From: a virus
DNA: 31,670 nucleotides
Direction: 5' to 3' (one strand)
Virus record (IMG/VR): IMGVR_UViG_3300035670_000890
Coordinates: 1-31,670 of that record
The translations under genes were made by a program, and so were the position numbers. The first letter of the stretch is position 1, and every line of letters starts with the position of its first letter. Below, in pieces: positions 11,639-26,510 of the stretch. The notes beneath the pieces are model-generated. The model saw only the letters and a list, made by a program, of their open reading frames with translations. It did no database searches and was not told the DNA's origin.

Positions 11639-12082
11639 TTATTTTTTTTGTTCTTCACCCACATAAGTATTGGTGTTCCGTTTGATGAGATGATCCTTTC
11701 GAATCCTACAGGATATCCAATCGTTATAATAATGCTCGTTCATTAGAGCATGGCAATTAAAAATCTCAAACGATTCCCAATAAGAACATTCAGACCTTGT
11801 CTTGCACAGGTGCATAATTTCTCTTGTGTACTCTTCTGGCCCATTAGTTGCAATCTCTTCTTGCAATTTTTTATTTGAACCATAATAGGTTTGCCAATCT
11901 GAAGACACTCGGCTTCTTTTTTTCTTTCCTTTTACTTGTCGCGTTTTAGCTTTAGTAAAGAATTTTTTACCGATATACTTTCGGCCCGTTTTTGTGTGTG
12001 TAATCACATAAACGAAGCCGAAAGCGTCACCTATATCTTCTTCTGTAAATTCTTGTGCGGTGTTATAAAAATACCAGGTCAA
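11639..12082 (-). CDS. GIY-YIG-type endonuclease-like protein
   Basis: The frame begins with TTG at 12082, overlapping the previous stop. It contains FGFVYVITHTKTGRKYIGKK, where GFVYVIT and KYIGKK match the GIY...YIG core, followed by SSDWQTYYGSNKKLQEEIAT, a conserved arginine/glutamate stretch (YTREIMHLCKTRSECSYWE) and YYNDWISCRI at the end. This is the phage Seg-like/GIY-YIG family. It is 147 residues long, the catalytic domain plus a short C-terminus. It probably acts as a homing endonuclease. It overlaps its neighbour, so it may have been captured by the operon rather than inserted recently. Confidence 0.8.
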   Translation of the reverse strand: MTWYFYNTAQEFTEEDIGDAFGFVYVITHTKTGRKYIGKKFFTKAKTRQVKGKKKRSRVSSDWQTYYGSNKKLQEEIATNGPEEYTREIMHLCKTRSECSYWESFEIFNCHALMNEHYYNDWISCRIRKDHLIKRNTNTYVGEEQKK

Positions 12083-12382: not shown

Positions 12383-13372
12383 TTATGCTGCTTTGCCCCA
12401 TACATCATTCCAACTACCACTTAGAGCGCCTTTTGCATAATCAGTCACACGATTTTCGAAGAAGTTGCCGTGAATTGGTGCGTTTATCATTTCTTCCACC
12501 CAAGGCAATGGATTCTTTTTGACCTTGAAGATACCCTTCAATCCCATGCTTATGAGCCTTCGATCCGCGATATAACGAATATATTTCTTTACCTCTTCGG
12601 AGGTCAGGTTTGGCATATCACCCATTTCGAAAGCTAAATCGATGAATTTATCTTCGAGTTCAACCATTCTCGTAGCAATGGTATATATTTGCGCTTTTAG
12701 TTCGTCGTTCCAAATTTCTTTGTTCTCTTCAATGTAAGTTCTAAACAACTTAATCATTGATTCGGTATGCATCGTTTCATCGACAATTGACCATGTGACG
12801 ATTTGGCCCATGCCCTTCATCATACCGTGTCGCGGAAAGTTCAACAACATAATGAATGAGCTAAACAATTGCATACCTTCTGTAAATGCCGAGAAAGCTG
12901 CAATATGGGTAGCTGTTGATTGTTTAGTGGAATTTTTACCGGCAAGGTCGAGAAGATAGTCGTGCTTCTCGCGCATTTGTTCGTACTCTAAAAATTCATT
13001 GTACGTTGTTTCTGGCATTCCAAGAGTTTCAATTAAATGTGAATATGCTGCAACATGTAAAGCTTCGCGAGCTGCAAAACCCAGAAGCATCATACGCACC
13101 TCTGGTTGCGGGAAATATGGTAAATAGTTTTTAACATAACCGCCAGCAACATCAACATCGCCTTGAGTGAAAAACCTAAAGATGTGAGTCAAAAACTGTT
13201 TTTGTTCGCTTGTCAGTTTAGTCTTCCAATCTTTAACGTCCTCTAGCATAGGAACTTCAGAATGAAGCCAGTGAGCTTGTTCGTGTTTTAGCCAAGCTTC
13301 ATATGCCCAAGGATAAACAAAAGGCTTGTAGTGTTGTCTTTCGTCAGTTAGTGTTAATTTTCTTTTTACCAT
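12383..13372 (-). CDS. nrdB: ribonucleotide reductase class Ia, small subunit (NrdB)
   Basis: The 329-residue beta subunit holds the diiron-tyrosyl radical cofactor that starts dNTP synthesis by NrdA. The metal ligands can be aligned by spacing with the E. coli protein: D72 (TQGDVDVAGGYV), E103 and H106 (AREALHVAAYSHL), E165, E199 and H202 (WSIVDETMHTES). The radical tyrosine is Y110, seven residues after E103 as expected. The C-terminus ends GSWNDVWGKAA. The ATG at 13372 lies inside the end of the glycosyltransferase gene (29-bp overlap). Its partner nrdA is 2 kb upstream, separated by a lipid-remodelling-like pair. Confidence 0.95.
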   Translation of the reverse strand: MVKRKLTLTDERQHYKPFVYPWAYEAWLKHEQAHWLHSEVPMLEDVKDWKTKLTSEQKQFLTHIFRFFTQGDVDVAGGYVKNYLPYFPQPEVRMMLLGFAAREALHVAAYSHLIETLGMPETTYNEFLEYEQMREKHDYLLDLAGKNSTKQSTATHIAAFSAFTEGMQLFSSFIMLLNFPRHGMMKGMGQIVTWSIVDETMHTESMIKLFRTYIEENKEIWNDELKAQIYTIATRMVELEDKFIDLAFEMGDMPNLTSEEVKKYIRYIADRRLISMGLKGIFKVKKNPLPWVEEMINAPIHGNFFENRVTDYAKGALSGSWNDVWGKAA

Positions 13373-14369
13373 TCTTTGCCTCGATTAAGTTGTTTTTGAA
13401 TATTTCCCAACAATTTTCCCATGTCCATTTTTTACTTTTTTGCTCAATAACATTTCTATCCAACAATAAACATTTTTTTACATTATCTCTGAGATTTTCA
13501 CCAAGAACGCCAGTATCATTGTCAATTATATCAGCCGGGCCTGGAACATCATAGGCTGCAACTGGTGTGCCAAAATTCATTGCCTCAATTAAAACTAAAC
13601 CGAAGGTATCGCTTTTACTTGGAAAGGCAAACACATCAGCTTTTGCAAAATAATCAGCTAGTTCGCTGCCACTTCTATAACCGGAAAAAAATACTTTCGA
13701 ATATTTTTCCTGTAGGTTTTTTCTTTCCGGTCCATCACCAACTATGATGACGGTGTATTCGTCGGACAGCTTACAAACTTCCTCAACATTTTTTTCTTTA
13801 CTCAATCGTCCAACATACAAAACGATTGGTTTTTTATTTTTGTGGGTCCATTCTTTCGTAGGTCTCAATGTACTGCGATCCACTCCTCTAGTCCATATTT
13901 TTATTTTTCCTTGAAATTTGTGTTGTCTCAATTCTTTTACGGTCGATTTCGTGGGAACTAAAATAGCCTCCGATTTTTTATGAAACCACTTCAGATATGC
14001 CCAAGTTATACATTCGGGCAAATGATACATTTTCTTTAAAATTTCTGGAAATTTTGTATGATACGAAGTGCTATATCTATAAGACTTGAAATCTAACCAG
14101 AGTTTCGCAAAAACTCCGATAGGACCTTCCGTTGCGATATGTATATAGTCCGGAGATATCTTCTCAATTTTTTTACCGATGTTCCACGCGATACTAATTT
14201 TAATCTCAGGATAACCAGGAGCATTAAAATGACCGAACTGCCGGGGGTCAAGATAAACAACATTATACCCGTCAAGTTCAGCCATTTTTTCCAAATTTTG
14301 AAAGGTCGTGACAACTCCATTGACTTGATTTGGAACATTGTCTGTTATAATGAGGATTTTATTGAGCAT
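13344..14369 (-). CDS. agt: GT4 glycosyltransferase, Agt-like (diacylglycerol glycosyltransferase)
   Basis: The 341-residue GT4 enzyme is started at ATG 14369 (MLNKILIITDNVPNQVNGVV). The N-terminal domain has the NGV loop, PGYPEIK, YIHIATEGPIG and STSYHTKFPE. The C-terminal domain has RGVD, VLYVGRLSKEKN, IVGDGPE and the E-x7-E region SDTFGLVLIEAM. The combination TEGP...SYHTKFPE...RGVD is that of the SqdX/Agt branch, which glycosylates diacylglycerol at the membrane. The gene directly upstream is PlcP-like, and in marine bacteria plcP and agt form a phosphate-starvation operon that swaps phospholipid for glycolipid. It overlaps plcP by 11 bases and nrdB by 29. The sugar donor cannot be read from the sequence. 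An LPS or wall-glycan transferase is the alternative. Confidence 0.82.
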   Translation of the reverse strand: MLNKILIITDNVPNQVNGVVTTFQNLEKMAELDGYNVVYLDPRQFGHFNAPGYPEIKISIAWNIGKKIEKISPDYIHIATEGPIGVFAKLWLDFKSYRYSTSYHTKFPEILKKMYHLPECITWAYLKWFHKKSEAILVPTKSTVKELRQHKFQGKIKIWTRGVDRSTLRPTKEWTHKNKKPIVLYVGRLSKEKNVEEVCKLSDEYTVIIVGDGPERKNLQEKYSKVFFSGYRSGSELADYFAKADVFAFPSKSDTFGLVLIEAMNFGTPVAAYDVPGPADIIDNDTGVLGENLRDNVKKCLLLDRNVIEQKSKKWTWENCWEIFKNNLIEAKNGKKKINTN

Positions 14370-15111
14370 TCTGTATCTTGTCCCAGACAACTATTTCCCA
14401 TTCACCTGTGAAATGTTCAACTAATGCTGTGCAAGATTCAACCCAATCGCCATCATTCATATAAACTATGCCATCTATTTCTTTTATTTCAGCGTTGTGT
14501 ATATGCCCGCAAATAACGCCATCATATTTTTTTCTTTTGCAGTATTCAAGGAGGTTTCGTTCAAATTGGAAAATAAAATCTACAGCTTTTTTGACTCTGT
14601 GTTTTAAAAATTTACTTAACGACCAGTAACTAAAACCTAAACGGTGTCTAATCCAATTAAACTTTGTATTCAAATTTAATACAAAATCGTAAGCTTTGTC
14701 ACCTAAAAAATTTAACCAAGGAGCCAATCTTGTAATTCCATCAAACAAGTCTCCATGCACGACCAAATATTTTTTTCCGTTTACTCCTAGATGTACAGTT
14801 TGATTTACTATTTCCACACGACCGAAACTTAAATTATATTGAAGAAGTGGCCTTAAAAACTCATCGTGATTTCCTACAACATAGATAACTTTTACGCCGC
14901 GTTTTGCGTGGCCCAATATTCTTCTAATAACGTTCGTGTGGTTTTGATTCCATTTCCACTTGTTCTGCGTTATTTTCCATCCATCAATAATGTCGCCGAC
15001 CAAATATAATGTTTCGCATGTGTTGTGTTTTAAAAAATTGTTCAGTAATTCCGCTTTACAGTCTTTGGTTCCCAAATGTACATCACTAATGAATATACTT
15101 TTGTAATGCAT
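14359..15111 (-). CDS. plcP: PlcP-like metallophosphoesterase (phospholipase C of lipid remodelling)
   Basis: The 250-residue calcineurin-like phosphoesterase has all metal motifs: D10-x-H12 (FISDVHLGTKDCKAELL), G39DIID, G80NHDE, H119GD (VVHGDLFD) and G202HIH. The wider pattern follows the bacterial PlcP family: CKAELL, ETLYLVGDIIDGW, NVIRRILGHAKRGVKV, GNHDEFLRPLL, LNTKFNWIRHRLGFSYWSLS and DGVICGHIHNAEI. LpxH proteins share the fold but not these segments. PlcP removes the phosphate-containing head group from phospholipids, giving diacylglycerol for Agt. The gene has a Shine-Dalgarno (AAAGGGAT) and overlaps agt by 11 bases. Annotation pipelines may call it a UDP-2,3-diacylglucosamine hydrolase. 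Confidence 0.85.
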   Translation of the reverse strand: MHYKSIFISDVHLGTKDCKAELLNNFLKHNTCETLYLVGDIIDGWKITQNKWKWNQNHTNVIRRILGHAKRGVKVIYVVGNHDEFLRPLLQYNLSFGRVEIVNQTVHLGVNGKKYLVVHGDLFDGITRLAPWLNFLGDKAYDFVLNLNTKFNWIRHRLGFSYWSLSKFLKHRVKKAVDFIFQFERNLLEYCKRKKYDGVICGHIHNAEIKEIDGIVYMNDGDWVESCTALVEHFTGEWEIVVWDKIQNAQ

Positions 15112-15112
15112 T

Positions 15113-15346
15113 TTATCCCTTTAGCCAAATTATTGTCGCTATTGTATTAATGACCAAAAAGTATGCGTTTTGCAACATCAAAGGTTTGTTTCTGTGTGTA
15201 TTGTAAAAATCATATAGAAGTATCATATGAGCAATAACAAATGCTGGAAATCCATATGCCATCCAGGGAGCCTTTAATGATATCGATGTTCCTCCGAAGA
15301 TAAACAAACAAGTTGCTATCCACTTAATGTCGAAATTAACCTTCAC
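15113..15346 (-). CDS. small multi-helix membrane protein, 77 aa
   Basis: The frame begins MKVNFDIKWIATCLFIFGGT, then PWMAYGFPAFVIAHMILLYD and QNAYFLVINTIATIIWLKG: three hydrophobic segments with short loops. The last segment (QNAYFLVIN) recalls small transporters of the PnuC/PQ-loop kind, but the match is weak and I do not assign one. It overlaps the end of nrdA by 11 bases and its stop lies within the plcP leader. It is therefore a fixed member of the nrdA-plcP-agt-nrdB run, and a membrane role in lipid or nutrient handling is possible. Confidence 0.65.
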   Translation of the reverse strand: MKVNFDIKWIATCLFIFGGTSISLKAPWMAYGFPAFVIAHMILLYDFYNTHRNKPLMLQNAYFLVINTIATIIWLKG

Positions 15347-17135
15347 AAGCTAAACACACGACTTCTTCCTTCGTTAGCTGCTTTAGGTCAATTTCGTCAA
15401 TCACCTGACGTTCAATTTTCTTAGCAACTTTGTCAGCTTTAGCTAACTTCTCTGAACGGCAGTAGTATAGTGTTTTTAATCCTTGTTTCCATGCTTGAAA
15501 GTGTACAGCATGAAGGTACTTAACATTCGCATCTGGTCTGAAAAACAAATTGACTGATTGCGCTTGGTCAATGTATTGTTGTCGGTTTGCTGCATGGTCA
15601 ATAATCCATCTTTGGTCTATTTCCATACTTGTTTTGAACACATCTTTTGTCCACTCATCCATCCATTCAAGGTGCTGAACTGAGCCATCATTTGAGATGA
15701 TGCTAGACCAAATTTCATTGTAGTCTAGGTCAACATTTTCTTCGCAGGCTTTTGTGATAATTTTATCAAGATATTTGTTCTTATTCAGGTGTGAACCTGA
15801 TAACGTATCTTGCCGGTACGCATTAGCCCTTAGAGGCTCAATGGACGGACTGGTATTACCCATCAAAATTGAAGACGATGCATTTGGTGCTACCGCCATA
15901 ACGTGGCTGAATCTAAGTCCTGTTCCCAGAGCATCTGGCGCCTCACCGCGTTCTGAACCTAAATCAACATTAGCTTTATTTAATCCTTCGCGAATGTGCT
16001 TGAACATACGAACGTTAGCTGAAGACGCCAGAGCAGATTCCCAAGCGATATTGTTCTTTTGTAGATAAGCGTGAAATCCCAAGGCGCCCACGCCAATAGA
16101 ACGTTCCCGTTGAGCCGAATATTTTGCTTTACTCACCGTCTCGGGTGCATTATCGATGAAGTGTTGTAAAACGTTGTCCAACATTTCAGCAATATCTTTC
16201 AGAAAGAGGGGTTCATTTTTCCACTCGTCGAAATATTCCAAATTTAAAGATGACAAGCAACAGACTGCTGTTCTGTCCTTGTCAGTAGGAAGAATAATTT
16301 CTGAACATAGATTACTTTGTTTAATCGATAACCCCAATTTCTTTTGAAATTCTGGCATAGAACGATTGCTTGTGTCGATAAAGTGTAGATATGGCTCACC
16401 CGTTTGCATACGCATTTCAAGAATTCTTTGCCAAAGTTCGCGAGCTGAGATTGTTTCGCGAATTTCTTTGCTGTGTGGGTCACGCAAATGCCAATCGTCG
16501 TTAGCATCGGAATCAATCATGCAACGTTCGACAATTTCCATAAAATCGTCCGTAATATTAATTCCGTGGTGCAAATTTAGGCACCGCATGTTTTGGTCGC
16601 CTGTGGGTTTTCTCATTTCCAAGAAAATTAAAATATCTGGATGAGAAATATCCAGATAAGCAGCATAACTGCCGCGCCGAGTGCGGCCCTGTCTATATGC
16701 GAGCGAACTTGCATCATAAGTTCTGAGATGAGGCATAACCCCCACAGACTTATCATCAGCACTCCGAATACCAACACCAATTCCAACACCGCCTCCTAAC
16801 ATCGACAACCAATTTACCTCCGAGAGAGTGTCGACCAAACCCTCAGCGGAATCATCCAAATAAGGCAGAAAGCATGATATAGGAAGACCACGACGGCTTC
16901 TACCAAAAGAAAGGATAGGAGTAGAATAAGACAACCAATGCCGAGAACTATATTCATAAAGTCTCTGGGCGTGTCCTGGATTAGATCCAAAAGCTTTTGA
17001 TACATATGCGAACCTTTCTTGTGGTGAATTTTCATCTTCTCTCATATAACTTTCGCGCAATCTCTTTAACCCTAATTCATCAAACAAAGAATCGCGAGAA
17101 AAATCTACCTTTATATCATGTACGATATCTGTCAT
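15336..17135 (-). CDS. nrdA: ribonucleotide reductase class Ia, large subunit (NrdA), short form
   Basis: The 599-residue alpha subunit reduces ribonucleotides using the radical from NrdB. Visible active-site elements are C88 (LPISCFLPY) and C292/C293 (TAVCCLSSLNLEY) for the redox cysteines; N275, C277 and E279 (SNLCSEI) for the thiyl-radical site; the paired tyrosines in TLYYCRSEK; and the C-terminal C594-x2-C597 for thioredoxin/glutaredoxin reduction. The N-terminal ATP-cone is absent (the protein begins directly with the ten-helix domain), so dATP feedback inhibition is expected to be lost, as in many phage enzymes. It is followed by an overlapping membrane-protein gene, then plcP, agt and nrdB. 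Confidence 0.95.
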   Translation of the reverse strand: MTDIVHDIKVDFSRDSLFDELGLKRLRESYMREDENSPQERFAYVSKAFGSNPGHAQRLYEYSSRHWLSYSTPILSFGRSRRGLPISCFLPYLDDSAEGLVDTLSEVNWLSMLGGGVGIGVGIRSADDKSVGVMPHLRTYDASSLAYRQGRTRRGSYAAYLDISHPDILIFLEMRKPTGDQNMRCLNLHHGINITDDFMEIVERCMIDSDANDDWHLRDPHSKEIRETISARELWQRILEMRMQTGEPYLHFIDTSNRSMPEFQKKLGLSIKQSNLCSEIILPTDKDRTAVCCLSSLNLEYFDEWKNEPLFLKDIAEMLDNVLQHFIDNAPETVSKAKYSAQRERSIGVGALGFHAYLQKNNIAWESALASSANVRMFKHIREGLNKANVDLGSERGEAPDALGTGLRFSHVMAVAPNASSSILMGNTSPSIEPLRANAYRQDTLSGSHLNKNKYLDKIITKACEENVDLDYNEIWSSIISNDGSVQHLEWMDEWTKDVFKTSMEIDQRWIIDHAANRQQYIDQAQSVNLFFRPDANVKYLHAVHFQAWKQGLKTLYYCRSEKLAKADKVAKKIERQVIDEIDLKQLTKEEVVCLACEG

Positions 17136-17156: not shown

Positions 17157-17813
17157 TTATTTTGTAAAACTTTTTGCCATAGGAAATACTTCTGCTATAA
17201 CTTCAGCGCACTTTAAAGCTATCTCCCTATGTTCTTTCTGTGTGCTCGTATCACTTCGAACTTGGATGTAATGTATCCAACTTCTGATTGTTCCATTTAC
17301 ATACATTTTTGAAACTGTGAGACCTTCGGGTAGTACGGCTCGGGCTTGTTCCTTCGCAATGCCGGAACGAATGGCCCATTCATATTTATTTTTTGCAAGT
17401 TCAATAATTTCTTCTTGGTGCCTATCCCATTGTTCTTGTAATAATGAATTTTTTATTTCAATACTATTTTGTCTATTTTTCGGATCTTGCAGACGAGCTT
17501 CGCGTGTAACAAAATCCAACTCTTTTGTGGGATCAGCATAACGTTGGCTAAATTCTTGAAATGAAAATGACCGATGCCGCAGAATTTGTCGCGCAATGTC
17601 GCGTGTTGTGGTAATTTCTAAGCATACATTAATCATCTCCATAGGACTCCAATGAAGATGCTTAATCAAATAATCTATCAATTTTTCACTCGTTTCGGTG
17701 TTAAGTTGATTGTTTGGATTTGACACACGAGCACAAAAAGCTACCAATTCTTGAGGTGTTTCAATTTCAATATCATCTGCGGGTTTTGAATAACTAATCA
17801 AGCGAACATGCAT
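17157..17813 (-). CDS. thyX: flavin-dependent thymidylate synthase (ThyX)
   Basis: The 218-residue enzyme makes dTMP from dUMP using FAD and methylene-folate. The ThyX signature R79-H-R-S-x5-S-x-R lies in LRHRSFSFQEFSQRYADP, and W55SPMEM and the C-terminal R-x3-E-Q-A-R...LP segment (IAKEQARAVLPEGLTVS) complete the binding site. It starts one base after the primase stop and precedes nrdA by 21 bases, so the three genes form one DNA-precursor and replication operon. Confidence 0.95.
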   Translation of the reverse strand: MHVRLISYSKPADDIEIETPQELVAFCARVSNPNNQLNTETSEKLIDYLIKHLHWSPMEMINVCLEITTTRDIARQILRHRSFSFQEFSQRYADPTKELDFVTREARLQDPKNRQNSIEIKNSLLQEQWDRHQEEIIELAKNKYEWAIRSGIAKEQARAVLPEGLTVSKMYVNGTIRSWIHYIQVRSDTSTQKEHREIALKCAEVIAEVFPMAKSFTK

Positions 17814-17814
17814 A

Positions 17815-18843
17815 TCAAATTTTTTTCCAATTGTTGAGTTGAACTTGCGCTTTTAATCCTTTGAAGACATTGCTACTTATAATTTTTTCCACCTCATCCG
17901 AGGTTTTTCCGTTTAAAATAATTTCATTGATATCTTTACCGGCCAAATTATCGGGCCAAATTGCAACACTATAATCTAACCCTATTGCATCCTGCATCAT
18001 TTTAACAATCTCTTTGTTTCGACATTCGTTGTCCCAAACCAAAATGATACTCTTAACACCAATTTCTTTTGCTACTTGAGATAAATTTGCATCGCCGGCA
18101 GCCAAACAATTATTAAGAAAAAGGCTATCAATTGGACCTTCTACCAAAATTACAGGTTTTTCAAAATCAACTCTATCTATTCCATATACAAGCTTGCTAT
18201 TCGAATCAGTCGTTCGGATAGTAACATACCGTAAGGTTTTATCGTTTGTTTCTAGAGCTCTTCCAGAGATTGCAATGAGCTCATTGTATTCGTCATAGAA
18301 AGGAATAACCAATCTAGCGTCATCTATAATTTTTTTACCGTGGCTGGGTATTAGAGCATCACAAAACCTTTTGTAAGAGGGTGTGAATAGCAATTTATCA
18401 TAATGCTCAGTTGGTATTTGGCGATTTCTAACATAATCTAAACAAAAATGGCCTTCTGGCAGATTGCTAATCCACTCTGCATGTTCAAATATTTTTTGCT
18501 TTGAAACTTTATCAAATTTTGGCGGTGAAATATTGAACACCGCGTTAGCAACGTTTCTACTGTTCGTTTTGCCCGAAACATATCTTTCCATCAGATATTC
18601 TTTATGAATCGATGGATCAATATGTTTGAGTAAATTGCCTAGACTGAGGCCTACTCCACAATTATGACAATTGTAGAATAAGTCCGTGCCCTTTTGAAAA
18701 ACATAGCCTCTGGCTTTTCTTAGGTTTTTTTGGCTGTCGCCACAAACCGGACAAGAAAAATTCCAGAGGTAGTCTTTTTTCTGCTTGAAGTTTCTTAAAC
18801 GAAACGATACAAGGCGGATATATTTCGAATCAATAGATAACAT
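17815..18843 (-). CDS. DNA primase, T4 gp61/DnaG-like
   Basis: The 342-residue primase has an N-terminal zinc-binding domain (C31PVCGDSQKN...F-YNCHNCG; C31, C34, C59, C62) and a toprim domain, VILVEGPIDSLFLNN, with the acidic D-x-D-like VWDNECRN about 35 residues later. This is the layout of T4 gp61, which makes RNA primers with the gp41 helicase. The first gene of the nucleotide block, it lies directly downstream of a promoter (18852-18880). Confidence 0.9.
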   Translation of the reverse strand: MLSIDSKYIRLVSFRLRNFKQKKDYLWNFSCPVCGDSQKNLRKARGYVFQKGTDLFYNCHNCGVGLSLGNLLKHIDPSIHKEYLMERYVSGKTNSRNVANAVFNISPPKFDKVSKQKIFEHAEWISNLPEGHFCLDYVRNRQIPTEHYDKLLFTPSYKRFCDALIPSHGKKIIDDARLVIPFYDEYNELIAISGRALETNDKTLRYVTIRTTDSNSKLVYGIDRVDFEKPVILVEGPIDSLFLNNCLAAGDANLSQVAKEIGVKSIILVWDNECRNKEIVKMMQDAIGLDYSVAIWPDNLAGKDINEIILNGKTSDEVEKIISSNVFKGLKAQVQLNNWKKI

Positions 18844-21922: not shown

Positions 21923-24900
21923 TTAAATATTTTTAGTTAGAGTGTTACCCAACTCGGGGTCTTTCTGAAATTTGTCCTCGTCAGGCATTTTCTTCATAGC
22001 AGATTTTACAATTTGTGCTTTTTTGCTAATCTGTTTTTCTTCCTTGACGGGCTTTTTCATTTGTTTTTGCATAGCCATTCTAGCGAGTTGACGAGCCTTT
22101 GCAACACCCTCGCCTCTCTTGCCAACGACAACATCTTTCTTTGGTTTCGATGGTGTGAATGGAGGTTCTGTTTCTTCTTTCTGAACATTGTGTGCAGAAA
22201 CTTTCTTCGATTCGTAATCACCAACATCTACAACATAGAAAGGAGTGCCATGTGCATCACCTTTATCGTGTCTAACGACTTTACCTGAAACCATTTTGCC
22301 TTTGTGTGGAACTTTTACTTTGGTTCCTGGTGCGTGAACTTCGTCAATTTGTTCTACTTCTTCCTTTTTCAAATCAATTTTTTTATATTGACCACTCTTT
22401 GACATTTTGTATTGCTGACTCAAAGCTTTTTCTTTTGTGTTATGCACACCAGATTTGAAAGTTTCACCAGTTTTTGTGGTAGCAACATTTCTATATCCTT
22501 CGTCAAGTTCAATTTCTTCACCGACATGCTGAGTTGAATGCGCCTTATCTGCACGATAAACACTAATGCCTGCGGTGTTCTTCATCTTCCAATGTTTTGC
22601 AGCATTCTGTGCGGCTTCGTATGAAGTGCTGCCATGGGTTTCGTGTTTTCCATGTTTTGCATGAACTGCAACATATGGTTTCTTTTCTTCATCGAGTTCT
22701 ACTTCTTCTTTCTTCATTTTGACGCCAGCAAGTTTCATACCCGACTTTGCCAAACCTTGCAGTCTTTTTGAGACGCCTTCATAATCGCCAGCATTGTATT
22801 TCTTGGCGATTGAACCGTGAACTTTGTCTCTGTATGAATTCAGAGTGTCTTTGCTGAGTTCATCAATCTGTTCGACTTCTTCGCTTACAGACTTCCAACT
22901 GCCGCCTTTTTCTTTGTACCATTTTGCCGCCCAGCCGTTAGCATAAGCGGAGTTTCCAGTAATGGTGATTAATCCATTTTGTATCATCACCCAAGTTTCA
23001 TTTTCTGTTGTTGGACACCAAACATCTTCTGATCCGGCATCTATTTTGTAAAGATTTTGTGTATTATGGAATTTTTTATTCCTAATATAAGATGCTGAAG
23101 TCATTTCTTCAGATTTTTCTCTGCTATTTACATAATAACCGTTTAAATATGCGGCAAGTAAAGATGCCCACAAATGGTCATATTCTTTCTGAACAAAACC
23201 AAAAGTGTGACGGCCTTCTATTTTTGTGGATTCTCCCTTGTCCCAGCCATCGTAGACTACTGAACTCGCTAAAAATATTTCTCTTTCTTTTTCGTTCATT
23301 GATAAGACTTTTTGTATCCAGTTATCTTTTTTGGTCCAATTTTCAATTAATAAGGAAGATTCGTTTTTTAATACAGAACACATTAACAACTTCATATGTG
23401 TGTTCAAGTTTATAGCTTCAACCAGCTCTTTACCATTTTCCCTAGAAATTACCCATTTATGATTTGGTGTGCAACGAACGGAAAATCCCGTAGGCTTTCC
23501 AATTTCTATTAAAGGAGCATTTTCATAAAAGTGTTTGTGTAAAACGGGTTTCCACTCTAATTTGTCTTCTTTCATATTATAGGAAAGTATTTCGTCGCCA
23601 ACATTTAAATCTTCATAAGATATGGGCCCACTTTTAGCTATTGCTAAACTATCTAAAGGAACACAAGGGTAAACGTCAAACTTGGACTTTGCTAATGATT
23701 TTGCTCTAGCCCAAAGTTCTGGATTGGTCGGCTTGTTTTCTTCATCAAGCTCTTTAAATTCTTCATTGATTCCGGCTTTGGCTGCAGCTATTGAAATATA
23801 ATTTTTTTGTTTTTTGCCGTCCTTGTAAAGAGCAAATACGTCTTCACCATATTTTTCAATGTGATGGCCACCTTTTTTCCAGACAACTTCGCCGCCCGAT
23901 TCGCGAATAACTTCTTCGTTCATTTCAGCTGTTAGATAGTTTGCAACCGTTGAAACGTAATCTTCAGCTAAAGTGATTTTTGATTGACACCATTCTGGCA
24001 AATTATCATTGTCTTCTAACATATCAGTAATTCTTTGTGCATTTGCCATAATTGAGCGTAAATCTGACTTTAACATTTCACCTTCGTAATCATACTCGCG
24101 CTCATCTTCGTAAAGAGACTCATTTACACCATGCATCTTGTTATGTCTCTTAACTGCACTTTCTATAGAACCTATTGGTTTAAATCCAAGTTTTGACCAG
24201 TGTTGGGGATGAATATGGTCTAAAACTTTATCTCTTGGATCCGTGTCCATGCTACGAACATGCTTTTTGAGAGCTTCGTGGTCACCCTTCTTCATTAAAT
24301 TGGCGGCAGTATGAAAACTATTCTTATCGATGCCACCGTGTTCGTCAGCGTATTTCTTTAGTTTATCTGCGTGAGTGCCAATTGAAGGCGCGTTTTCGGT
24401 CATTTGCGTTTCTTCGTTTCTTGTAGCCATTTTGTTACGCAATTGTAATGCAGATGACCGTGTCATGCCTTTAATTCTCCTGTCGAGAATTTTTTGTGCC
24501 ATGTCTTTATATTCGCCACTTGTAGCGTGGCTTGCGAGTGCGGGAATTTCTCTTCTTGCGGCCTTCTGGTAATTGTAATGAGTTTGCGCCGAGATTTCAT
24601 CAATTTGTTCAACATCTTCATTCGTTGTTCTGCCTGTTGCAAGCTTACCTGCAGCACGAACAATACCGGTTTGTCGTTTCATTTCTTTTCTGTGCAAGTC
24701 TTTCGCTTCTTCTGGTCTGTTTCTGGAAGCGGCAACACCACTTCTATATCCTTTCTCACCAACATCAGCGGAGGCTTTTCTGATATATGTCATTAAGGTA
24801 GTTTTCTTCAGTTCATCAATCTGTTCGACTTCTTCATTATATTGAGCTGGACGTAAATGTGATGCAATTTTTGCAATGTGGTGAGTTTGAATTCCCTGTT

Positions 24901-26182
24901 TTTTGAGTGCAGAGTTTACTTTGTCCCAGGTTGTATGCTTTTCATCGCCTGGACGAAGATGTGTGGCGAATCTTGCAGCACCTTGAGTACCAATCACTTT
25001 AGTTACTGCTTTTACCGCATGTTCAACAGGAACTTTTGCCTCATCAATCTGCTCAGATTCTTCGTTTACATCATCTTTTTGTTTTGAACCACCATAACGG
25101 TGTCCTTGTACGACTTGTTTCGAAGGTTGTTTCTTTTCTTTTGGCTTGTGAAAAATGTCTTCTTCTCTTTCACGGGCTTCATCCTCTCTCTTATCGCGAA
25201 GACGTTGGATTCTTTGCAATGCGGTTTCTTCCTTCTGCAATTGTTGACCGCCCTTTGAACGATAGTGAAGAACTGTTGACGCATCGTTGTGTTGGTCAAG
25301 ATATTTGCCTTCAGCCTTTGGATTATGGCCTTTCATTGCCTGTGCTGCTTCATGTGCATCTTTTTGGATGTACTTGAGTTCAGCATCAGACTTGTAATGA
25401 TATGCATGACCCTTCAGAGGCATGGCAAGGCGAGCCTCATCGATTTCAACTTCTTCTTTGGCGAGTCTATCAACTGCTCTCATGATGCCAGTATTTCTCT
25501 TCGCCAAATGTTTCATTGCTCTTTTGAAACCGCCCTCTGTTTGTGACAGTTGAACATCAGCCATAGCACCTTGAGCATCTGGAACAGACTTACGCACATA
25601 GTTACCCAAAGTAGTTTTGCTCAGTTCATCAATCTGTTCTACTTCTTCTTTCTTCATAAATTTCTTCAAAAGTTCTTTTCCTTTACTTGCCTTTTCTTCA
25701 GAATCCATTTTTGCTTTGTGTTCTTTTGATGCACTCTTGTATTCTGGGCTGTTGATATCGCGATACGGAGTCTTTTGTTTCTCCTTTGGCCCTGAACCTT
25801 CTTCAAGTTCAACTTCTTCGTTTCTTGTTTTATTCGTCATTTTTGAAGTCCTTAAAATTGAAAGTACCAAAGGCGCCTTCAATTGTTTGTGGCGAGGTAC
25901 TGGAATATGTTCTTTAGAATCTGGATGAGTGAAAACATCGTGCGAACCCGATGTTCGTGTAAGTTTCCATCCTTGTTTCTTTAGATGGCTGTGAACTGCT
26001 CTGGTGTCCATGTTGGCACCGGGCATCTCTGTTAATTGTTCATCTTCTTTCAATTTTACCTCAGCACTATCGCTTGTTGGCCTAGGAGAAACTACTGGTG
26101 TGCTTTTTACCATATGCGGAATCGTGGGCTTAAATCTGCCCTTTTCTCGGTGTTGTTCAAATAGTTTATTTAGTTTTTTCAC
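21923..26182 (-). CDS. giant modular late protein with processing-site-like repeats, HicA-like domain and intein
   Basis: The 1,419-residue product starts at GTG 26182 directly after the upstream stop; an ATG at 26218 (1,431 residues) overlaps that gene by 35 bases. It looks like a string of short modules. A HicA-like domain lies at about residues 58-115. There follow segments beginning ELSK-TTLGNYVRK, YHYKSDAELKYIQKDAHEAA and a KAVTKVIGTQG module, the KSKFDVYP/SAYANGWAAKWY module and a KOW-like end (KVKVPHKGKMVSGKVVRHDK). The modules are separated by an acidic motif with the form EEVEQIDEL or EEVELDE. At least ten copies are visible. I-D-E and L-D-E fit the (I/L)-x-E cleavage rule of T4-type prohead proteases, so processing into head peptides is plausible. 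An intein interrupts residues 840-1077. It is followed by virion genes. The function is unknown. Confidence 0.75.
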   Translation of the reverse strand: MKKLNKLFEQHREKGRFKPTIPHMVKSTPVVSPRPTSDSAEVKLKEDEQLTEMPGANMDTRAVHSHLKKQGWKLTRTSGSHDVFTHPDSKEHIPVPRHKQLKAPLVLSILRTSKMTNKTRNEEVELEEGSGPKEKQKTPYRDINSPEYKSASKEHKAKMDSEEKASKGKELLKKFMKKEEVEQIDELSKTTLGNYVRKSVPDAQGAMADVQLSQTEGGFKRAMKHLAKRNTGIMRAVDRLAKEEVEIDEARLAMPLKGHAYHYKSDAELKYIQKDAHEAAQAMKGHNPKAEGKYLDQHNDASTVLHYRSKGGQQLQKEETALQRIQRLRDKREDEAREREEDIFHKPKEKKQPSKQVVQGHRYGGSKQKDDVNEESEQIDEAKVPVEHAVKAVTKVIGTQGAARFATHLRPGDEKHTTWDKVNSALKKQGIQTHHIAKIASHLRPAQYNEEVEQIDELKKTTLMTYIRKASADVGEKGYRSGVAASRNRPEEAKDLHRKEMKRQTGIVRAAGKLATGRTTNEDVEQIDEISAQTHYNYQKAARREIPALASHATSGEYKDMAQKILDRRIKGMTRSSALQLRNKMATRNEETQMTENAPSIGTHADKLKKYADEHGGIDKNSFHTAANLMKKGDHEALKKHVRSMDTDPRDKVLDHIHPQHWSKLGFKPIGSIESAVKRHNKMHGVNESLYEDEREYDYEGEMLKSDLRSIMANAQRITDMLEDNDNLPEWCQSKITLAEDYVSTVANYLTAEMNEEVIRESGGEVVWKKGGHHIEKYGEDVFALYKDGKKQKNYISIAAAKAGINEEFKELDEENKPTNPELWARAKSLAKSKFDVYPCVPLDSLAIAKSGPISYEDLNVGDEILSYNMKEDKLEWKPVLHKHFYENAPLIEIGKPTGFSVRCTPNHKWVISRENGKELVEAINLNTHMKLLMCSVLKNESSLLIENWTKKDNWIQKVLSMNEKEREIFLASSVVYDGWDKGESTKIEGRHTFGFVQKEYDHLWASLLAAYLNGYYVNSREKSEEMTSASYIRNKKFHNTQNLYKIDAGSEDVWCPTTENETWVMIQNGLITITGNSAYANGWAAKWYKEKGGSWKSVSEEVEQIDELSKDTLNSYRDKVHGSIAKKYNAGDYEGVSKRLQGLAKSGMKLAGVKMKKEEVELDEEKKPYVAVHAKHGKHETHGSTSYEAAQNAAKHWKMKNTAGISVYRADKAHSTQHVGEEIELDEGYRNVATTKTGETFKSGVHNTKEKALSQQYKMSKSGQYKKIDLKKEEVEQIDEVHAPGTKVKVPHKGKMVSGKVVRHDKGDAHGTPFYVVDVGDYESKKVSAHNVQKEETEPPFTPSKPKKDVVVGKRGEGVAKARQLARMAMQKQMKKPVKEEKQISKKAQIVKSAMKKMPDEDKFQKDPELGNTLTKNI

Positions 26183-26510
26183 TTCAATCTTCTTTCGCCA
26201 TTTTTGTTGCTGTAGCATACATTACTGACTTGCCTCTTGAACCATATCTTTCTTTGAAACCGGAAAGTTTCTTTTTCATGCCTTTAACATATTCTTCTTT
26301 CTTTTTCATTTCTGGCTCTGTCAGCGAGCGTTCATCTAGTTCAGTTTCTTCTTTTTTTACAAGTTTAGAGGTTGCCTTCTTGATACCTTCGACTCTGTTG
26401 TATCTGTCCATGCCCTTGTATTTGTCGCCAGCAACCAGACGGGTGGCAGACTTGTCAATATAACTTTTCAATGTGTCTTTGCTCAGTTCATCAATCTGCT
26501 CAGTTTCCTC
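22340..26510 (-). repeat. dispersed repeats coding E-E-V-E-Q-I-D-E
   Basis: Near-identical 24-nt copies of the acidic motif occur at 22340-22363, 22859-22882, 24596-24619, 24812-24835, 25040-25063, 25625-25648 and 26487-26510. Related forms (EEVEIDE, EEIELDE, EEVELDE, EETELDE) occur at about 25436, 22505, 22695, 25800 and 26330. In four copies (22859, 24812, 25625 and 26487) the conserved stretch continues into codons for a T-L-x2-Y segment (ELSK-x-TL or ELKK-TTL). Confidence 0.8.
22952..23665 (-). other. intein inside the modular late protein (238 aa)
   Basis: The protein reads ...KFDVYP, then C840 VPLDSLAIAKSGPISYEDL. It ends DVWCPTTENETWVMIQNG...TITGN1077, then S of SAYANGWAAKWY. This gives an N-terminal Cys, block A, block B with T-x2-H (VRCTPNHKWVI), block F and a terminal Asn before Ser+1. 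The penultimate residue is Gly rather than the usual His. Removing it joins the conserved phage sequence KFDVYP-SAYANGW without a gap. The central ~110 residues contain REIFLASSVVYDGWDKG and FGFVQKEYDHLWASLLAAYL, which resemble one degenerate LAGLIDADG motif, so homing activity is doubtful. Confidence 0.88.

Follow-up and report, generated by a model that had tools for sequence, protein, structure and literature searches.

The stretch of DNA analysed here, called the window below, comprises 31,670 bases of a T4-like virus fragment. It is regarded as T4-like because of two of its proteins: in tblastn searches the nearest isolates to the primase are the Pelagibacter phages Mosig and HTVC008M (T4-like pelagiphages), cyanophages and a Methylophilales phage, and one virion protein has its best relatives in cyanomyoviruses. 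A run of genes on the minus strand reads primase, thyX, nrdA, orf77 (coding for a membrane protein), plcP, agt and nrdB (Table 1); from primase to nrdB the genes are separated by gaps of 1-21 nt or otherwise overlap. The initial annotation had recognised a plcP-agt-like pair between nrdA and nrdB. Both genes are real and lie on the minus strand within these flanks (Pfam Metallophos 6e-13 and Glycos_transf_1 3e-27), but plcP does not directly follow nrdA, since orf77, whose product gives a weak PnuC-like match (E 0.04), intervenes. The longest agt reading frame, 13344-14390, opens at TTG 14390; the likelier start is the ATG at 14369, inside the end of plcP, which leaves an 11-nt overlap between the two genes. 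A search of the window for the T4 late promoter TATAAATA found no more sites than chance, and the scans of the operon for promoters and terminators stayed close to chance level. Elsewhere the window carries a cluster of ten tRNA genes, a phage protein with a papain-family cysteine protease domain, and a long repetitive protein with an N-terminal HicA-toxin-like domain and a weak intein-like stretch that scores under the cut-off.

Table 1. Coordinates of the features in the window and, where prefixed by L, in related viral loci
Feature	Coordinates	Strand	Basis or remark
DNA primase	17815..18843	-	PHROG 4e-72; same operon
thyX	17157..17813	-	Pfam 3e-43; same operon
nrdA, class Ia ribonucleotide reductase large subunit	15336..17135	-	Pfam 5e-108; upstream flank
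orf77, small membrane protein, 77 aa	15113..15346	-	ORF; also beside nrdB in phages without plcP-agt
plcP, predicted PlcP-type phospholipase C, calcineurin-like phosphoesterase superfamily, 250 aa	14359..15111	-	identity, tree, metal ligands
agt, predicted Agt-type GT4 diacylglycerol glycosyltransferase, 341 aa from ATG	13344..14369	-	identity, tree, fold model
nrdB, ribonucleotide reductase small subunit	12383..13372	-	Pfam 1e-76; downstream flank, 29-nt overlap with agt
SegE-type GIY-YIG endonuclease	11639..12082	-	Pfam 5e-35; after nrdB, recurs in relatives
Ten tRNA genes	667-2546
Papain-family cysteine protease domain in phage protein	3597-4637		Pfam 2e-11
Repetitive protein, 1431 aa, HicA-toxin-like N-terminal domain	21923-26218	-	Pfam 2e-11 (HicA-toxin-like domain)
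Two-hairpin RNA-like element	L018:2328-2379, L020:7937-7988, L085:7052-7103, L316:2043-2094, L358:~2000 and ~3990; ~35 further places
Permuted tmRNA, betaproteobacterial type	L017:7640-8013, L343:309-788		directly upstream of plcP
Isocitrate lyase gene	L067:1154-2479 and L068		NCBIfam 2e-235

Identity of the two enzymes

The phosphoesterase is most likely a phospholipase C yielding diacylglycerol, judging from its sequence relationships. It is 55.0% identical over 238 amino acids to the PlcP of P. aeruginosa and 46.3% identical to that of S. meliloti. The S. meliloti reference, whose gene adjoins an acyl-homoserine-lactone synthase and a LuxR gene, is presumably SMc00171. The P. aeruginosa reference was taken from a plasmid segment that also bears cyaB, and it was equated with PA3219 via gene order and the pathway paper (PMC8528852). 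The residues of the dinuclear metal site, D10, H12, D40, N81, H82, H119, H203 and H205, are invariant among 32 proteins. The tree, which covers 63 proteins, groups it with these characterised PlcPs of P. aeruginosa and S. meliloti; the viral members make up a single clade (support 99), and ten LpxHs stand apart with a support of 100.

The glycosyltransferase of the window, a GT4 enzyme, likely transfers a sugar to diacylglycerol, as its resemblance to known Agts suggests. It shares 39.6% identity over 323 amino acids with Agt1 of P. aeruginosa, for which diacylglycerol glucosyltransferase activity is proven: when present in E. coli, it makes monoglucosyl-diacylglycerol (PMC8528852). In the GT4 tree the viral proteins fall into a single clade (100) whose sister is the group of bacterial Agts linked to plcP, and nine further GT4s are separated (99). 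The inner branches among the bacterial Agts are weak, and E. coli WaaG and WaaB sit on very long branches, which makes those nine GT4s preferable as outgroup. The predicted structure has a GT-B fold (pLDDT 91.6) with GT4 enzymes as its best PDB matches, and the catalytic residues H111 and D/E-x7-E are conserved. The motifs listed by the initial annotation are conserved in both proteins, metal ligands included, and the tree comparison that it had set in advance separated the phosphoesterase from LpxH and put the GT4 among the Agts linked to plcP instead of WaaG, WaaB or other GT4s.

Going by database labels, one would instead take the GT4 for an LPS glycosyltransferase and the phosphoesterase for a lipid A enzyme of the LpxH kind. 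Such genes are publicly annotated as UDP-2,3-diacylglucosamine diphosphatase, and LpxH, a UDP-2,3-diacylglucosamine hydrolase, does share the calcineurin-like fold and the metal site with the window protein; it is also the nearest fold to the AlphaFold model of PlcP (Z 18-20, 17-22% identity), a model of moderate confidence (pLDDT 78.9). However, a sequence search of solved structures recognised no PlcP, so LpxH may come out on top just for want of a closer solved relative. E. coli LpxH aligns with the window protein at 23.8% identity over only 122 amino acids, half the length, and the curated LpxH models give 38 bits against a cut-off of 190 and 48 bits against one of 134. These scores, together with the separate clade, led us to reject LpxH as the identity of the phosphoesterase, and an LPS glycosyltransferase was likewise rejected, the GT4 lying far from WaaG and WaaB; we give the labels hardly any credence. 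Viral lpxH calls in AMG surveys may in fact be plcP, and viral 'lpxH' entries merit rechecking.

Spread, partner exchange and putative promoters of the viral cassette

A PlcP relative is encoded in 583 stretches found by scanning IMG/VR, and the scans for the two glycosyltransferases found beside it gave alignments in at least 572 and at least 547 stretches. The recurrence of plcP and agt across hundreds of viral contigs is far beyond chance. At the closest 80 viral PlcP loci, the gene directly downstream codes for a glycosyltransferase in 71 cases, 38 of them GT4 and 33 GT2, an enzyme whose fold is unrelated to that of GT4; among the other nine, four contigs end too early and five have neither glycosyltransferase. 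Seen from the glycosyltransferases, plcP lies directly upstream in 152 of the 154 judgeable viral loci among the matches listed (75/76 for GT2, 77/78 for GT4), and at none of the judged loci do both glycosyltransferases occur together. The pairing in viruses is near-obligate. When the partner is marked on the PlcP tree, at least ten changes between GT4 and GT2 are required, at least five of which are forced by well supported branches. All three proteins are under purifying selection, with a median dN/dS of 0.10 for PlcP, 0.30 for Agt (GT4) and 0.10 for GT2. The viral GT2 finds matches in 10 of 299 bacterial genomes, at no more than 35% identity, and where such a genome also has plcP (G124, G214, G272) the two genes are on separate contigs or far apart. 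One 'phage' hit, MT836169, was set aside as probably bacterial: its neighbours look by eye like tyrS, polyphosphate kinase and exopolyphosphatase.

The search with orf77 identified nine viral loci (L391-L399), eight of which read nrdA-orf77-nrdB, lack plcP and agt, and have orf77 and nrdB only 3 nt apart. From the empty site in these eight contigs it follows that the window pair was cleanly inserted, with orf77 on one side and nrdB on the other. Some other viruses have nrdA-plcP-GT-nrdB without orf77. Placement in the nucleotide operon, which the initial annotation had emphasised, is true of the window but is just one among several genomic settings, and many copies stand alone. Its statement that no phage plcP-agt operon was known to it agrees with our search of the literature on phage plcP, lipid remodelling and viral lpxH, which found no description of the cassette, most subscription journals and preprints lying outside its coverage; the survey of viral genomes that it had called for nevertheless revealed the adjacent pair to be common in viruses, with a swappable glycosyltransferase. 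In bacteria, plcP is already known beside agt or other glycosyltransferases (PMC4796936), so the pairing itself is not new; it is for its viral spread and the swapping of the partner that our literature search found no description.

The upstream regions of plcP, 146 when made non-redundant, divide into 85 of stand-alone and 61 of embedded copies. They were scored with a Pho-box matrix built from E. coli sites, a score of at least 8 counting as a match, and 250 other intergenic regions of the same contigs served as controls. A Pho-box-like repeat is found in 36 of the 85 stand-alone regions versus 12 of the 250 controls (Fisher p 3e-15), and in 5 of the 61 embedded ones. The majority are on the plus strand, mostly at a distance of 39-42 or 49-54 nt upstream of the ATG, and precede TAAATA, a T4-late-like motif present just before the ATG in 50 of the 85 stand-alone copies. 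A matrix-free check gave 7-mer direct repeats at 11 nt in 32% of stand-alone, 10% of embedded and 9% of shuffled regions. Many stand-alone cassettes thus look built to respond to the phosphate-starvation regulator of the host through a putative PhoB-controlled promoter, although Pho-box predictions in phages can mislead, predicted boxes not always being bound (PMC10976474). The window copy has no Pho box above chance, and a weak site of 8.7 bits before the primase gene is within the control rate. In 12 loci the neighbour search placed pstS next to the cassette or close by, and in the isolate Mosig pstS is divergent from plcP; a whole-record search for PstS was positive in only 2 of 32 partial plcP contigs.

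Several other features accompany the cassette. A two-hairpin RNA-like element, AATCGGTCAC-loop-GTGACTCTGGATCCGTAACCAGA, has both-sided changes in 6 of its 10 pairs, a level attained in 0 of 500 shuffles, and has no Rfam match. Its descriptor finds 42 sites in 2.24 Mb, one of which (L279) looks spurious; all share the strand of the cassette, and almost every one flanks it, either immediately ahead of plcP or immediately behind the glycosyltransferase, where a terminator often follows. The permuted phage-borne tmRNA seen upstream of plcP in two loci is of betaproteobacterial type, which suggests betaproteobacterial hosts for these viruses. In L067 and L068 an isocitrate lyase gene, which belongs to the glyoxylate shunt and is unusual in a phage, separates a DesA-type desaturase from plcP-agt. 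A fatty-acid desaturase occurs within ~4 kb of plcP-GT in 26 of ~101 viral loci (e.g. L049, L058, L067), hinting at a wider lipid module, and a gene for a RimK-family ATP-grasp glutamate ligase lies between plcP and GT4 in L028, L029, L065, L066 and L069.

A model for membrane remodelling by phages

The model that we favour, and hold to be probable, is that the pair constitutes a phage-borne lipid-remodelling cassette in which PlcP cleaves phospholipids, Agt caps the resulting diacylglycerol and the phosphorus is freed for phage nucleic acid. The dinuclear-metal phospholipase C would convert host phospholipids into diacylglycerol and a soluble phosphorylated head group, and Agt would use a UDP-sugar to glycosylate the diacylglycerol; the product would be a glycolipid, for example monoglucosyl- or glucuronosyl-diacylglycerol. 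Capping by the glycosyltransferase would allow the membrane to survive while its phosphorus goes to phage nucleic acid. Since PlcP would release an organic phosphate ester, host enzymes must finish the job. In the window, insertion in the primase-thyX-nrdA-nrdB operon implies that the cassette should be produced together with the machinery of nucleotide synthesis; in many relatives the putative PhoB-controlled promoter precedes it. Such a Pho-like switch suggests that phages may mine the host membrane for the phosphate of their DNA. Phage DNA demands much phosphorus, and by a rough estimate the 2-3 million phospholipids of a small aquatic cell hold as much phosphorus as six to nine 170-kb genomes. 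To our knowledge, the known phage phosphate genes serve uptake or external esters. If the model is correct, the host membrane is another phosphorus source for phages, the lipids released at lysis are altered, and the cassette is frequent enough to matter in aquatic phosphorus cycling.

The same enzymes could bring another benefit, an altered host surface or membrane charge acting, for instance, against superinfection or host defence, with phosphate incidental. The partner switches between two unrelated folds look as if the head group were under diversifying pressure, the GT4/GT2 swapping would also fit a new head group that is itself selected for, Agt evolves faster than PlcP, and a study of Ruegeria describes membrane aminolipids that trade off against phage attachment (PMC9938194). 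GT2, however, is not fast-evolving, insertion in a nucleotide-synthesis operon gives no hint of a surface change, and the Pho-box-like promoters and pstS neighbours indicate phosphate limitation; we regard a surface benefit as unlikely, while acknowledging that the repeated exchange of glycosyltransferases leaves room for it, perhaps alongside a gain in phosphorus. A role late in infection, when diacylglycerol or a non-bilayer glycolipid would weaken the membrane and aid lysis or virion release, could explain the TAAATA motif before so many stand-alone copies, but a dedicated glycosyltransferase that removes diacylglycerol is nearly always present and the window copy sits among replication genes in an operon, which makes this role very improbable. 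The observation of the initial annotation is confirmed and its reading supported for the most part; the membrane-phosphate interpretation gains independent support from the Pho-box-like promoters and pstS neighbours of relatives. The window copy has no such box.

Beyond the window, we lean slightly towards a more general proposal: a cassette, common to many aquatic phages, of one conserved phospholipase C and interchangeable, unrelated glycosyltransferases, often wired to PhoB, by which the host membrane would be rebuilt and phosphate released for genomes; its GT2 would represent a diacylglycerol glycosyltransferase of a new type. In this cassette viruses use, in modular form, known enzyme families and a pathway already known from bacteria. 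Its nearest isolated counterpart in our comparison, the T4-like Pelagibacter phage Mosig EXVC030M, has a 52% identical PlcP, annotated as UDP-2,3-diacylglucosamine hydrolase, and no glycosyltransferase beside it. In bacteria, PlcP-Agt lipid remodelling under phosphate stress is known from Phaeobacter MED193, SAR11 HTCC7211 and P. aeruginosa PA3219-PA3218 (PMC4796936, PMC8528852); the P. aeruginosa PlcP-Agt1 pair has been characterised and makes glycolipids (PMC8528852), and the SAR11 Agt makes a glycolipid in E. coli (PMC4796936). These systems share with the viral cassette the two families, the gene order and the close pairing; plcP is often near other glycosyltransferases and Pho boxes have been reported upstream (PMC4796936, PMC8528852). 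Unlike them, the window pair resides in a T4-like virus, within a nucleotide operon and without a Pho box, and the viral PlcPs and viral GT4s each form a clade apart from their bacterial counterparts. Cyanophage genes controlled by PhoB, such as pstS of P-SSM2, are likewise phage genes under the phosphate regulator of the host (PMC10976474). In contrast to cyanophage pstS, the box of the viral cassette follows the E. coli-type consensus, its hosts are probably not cyanobacteria, and its predicted target is the lipids of the membrane rather than phosphate uptake.
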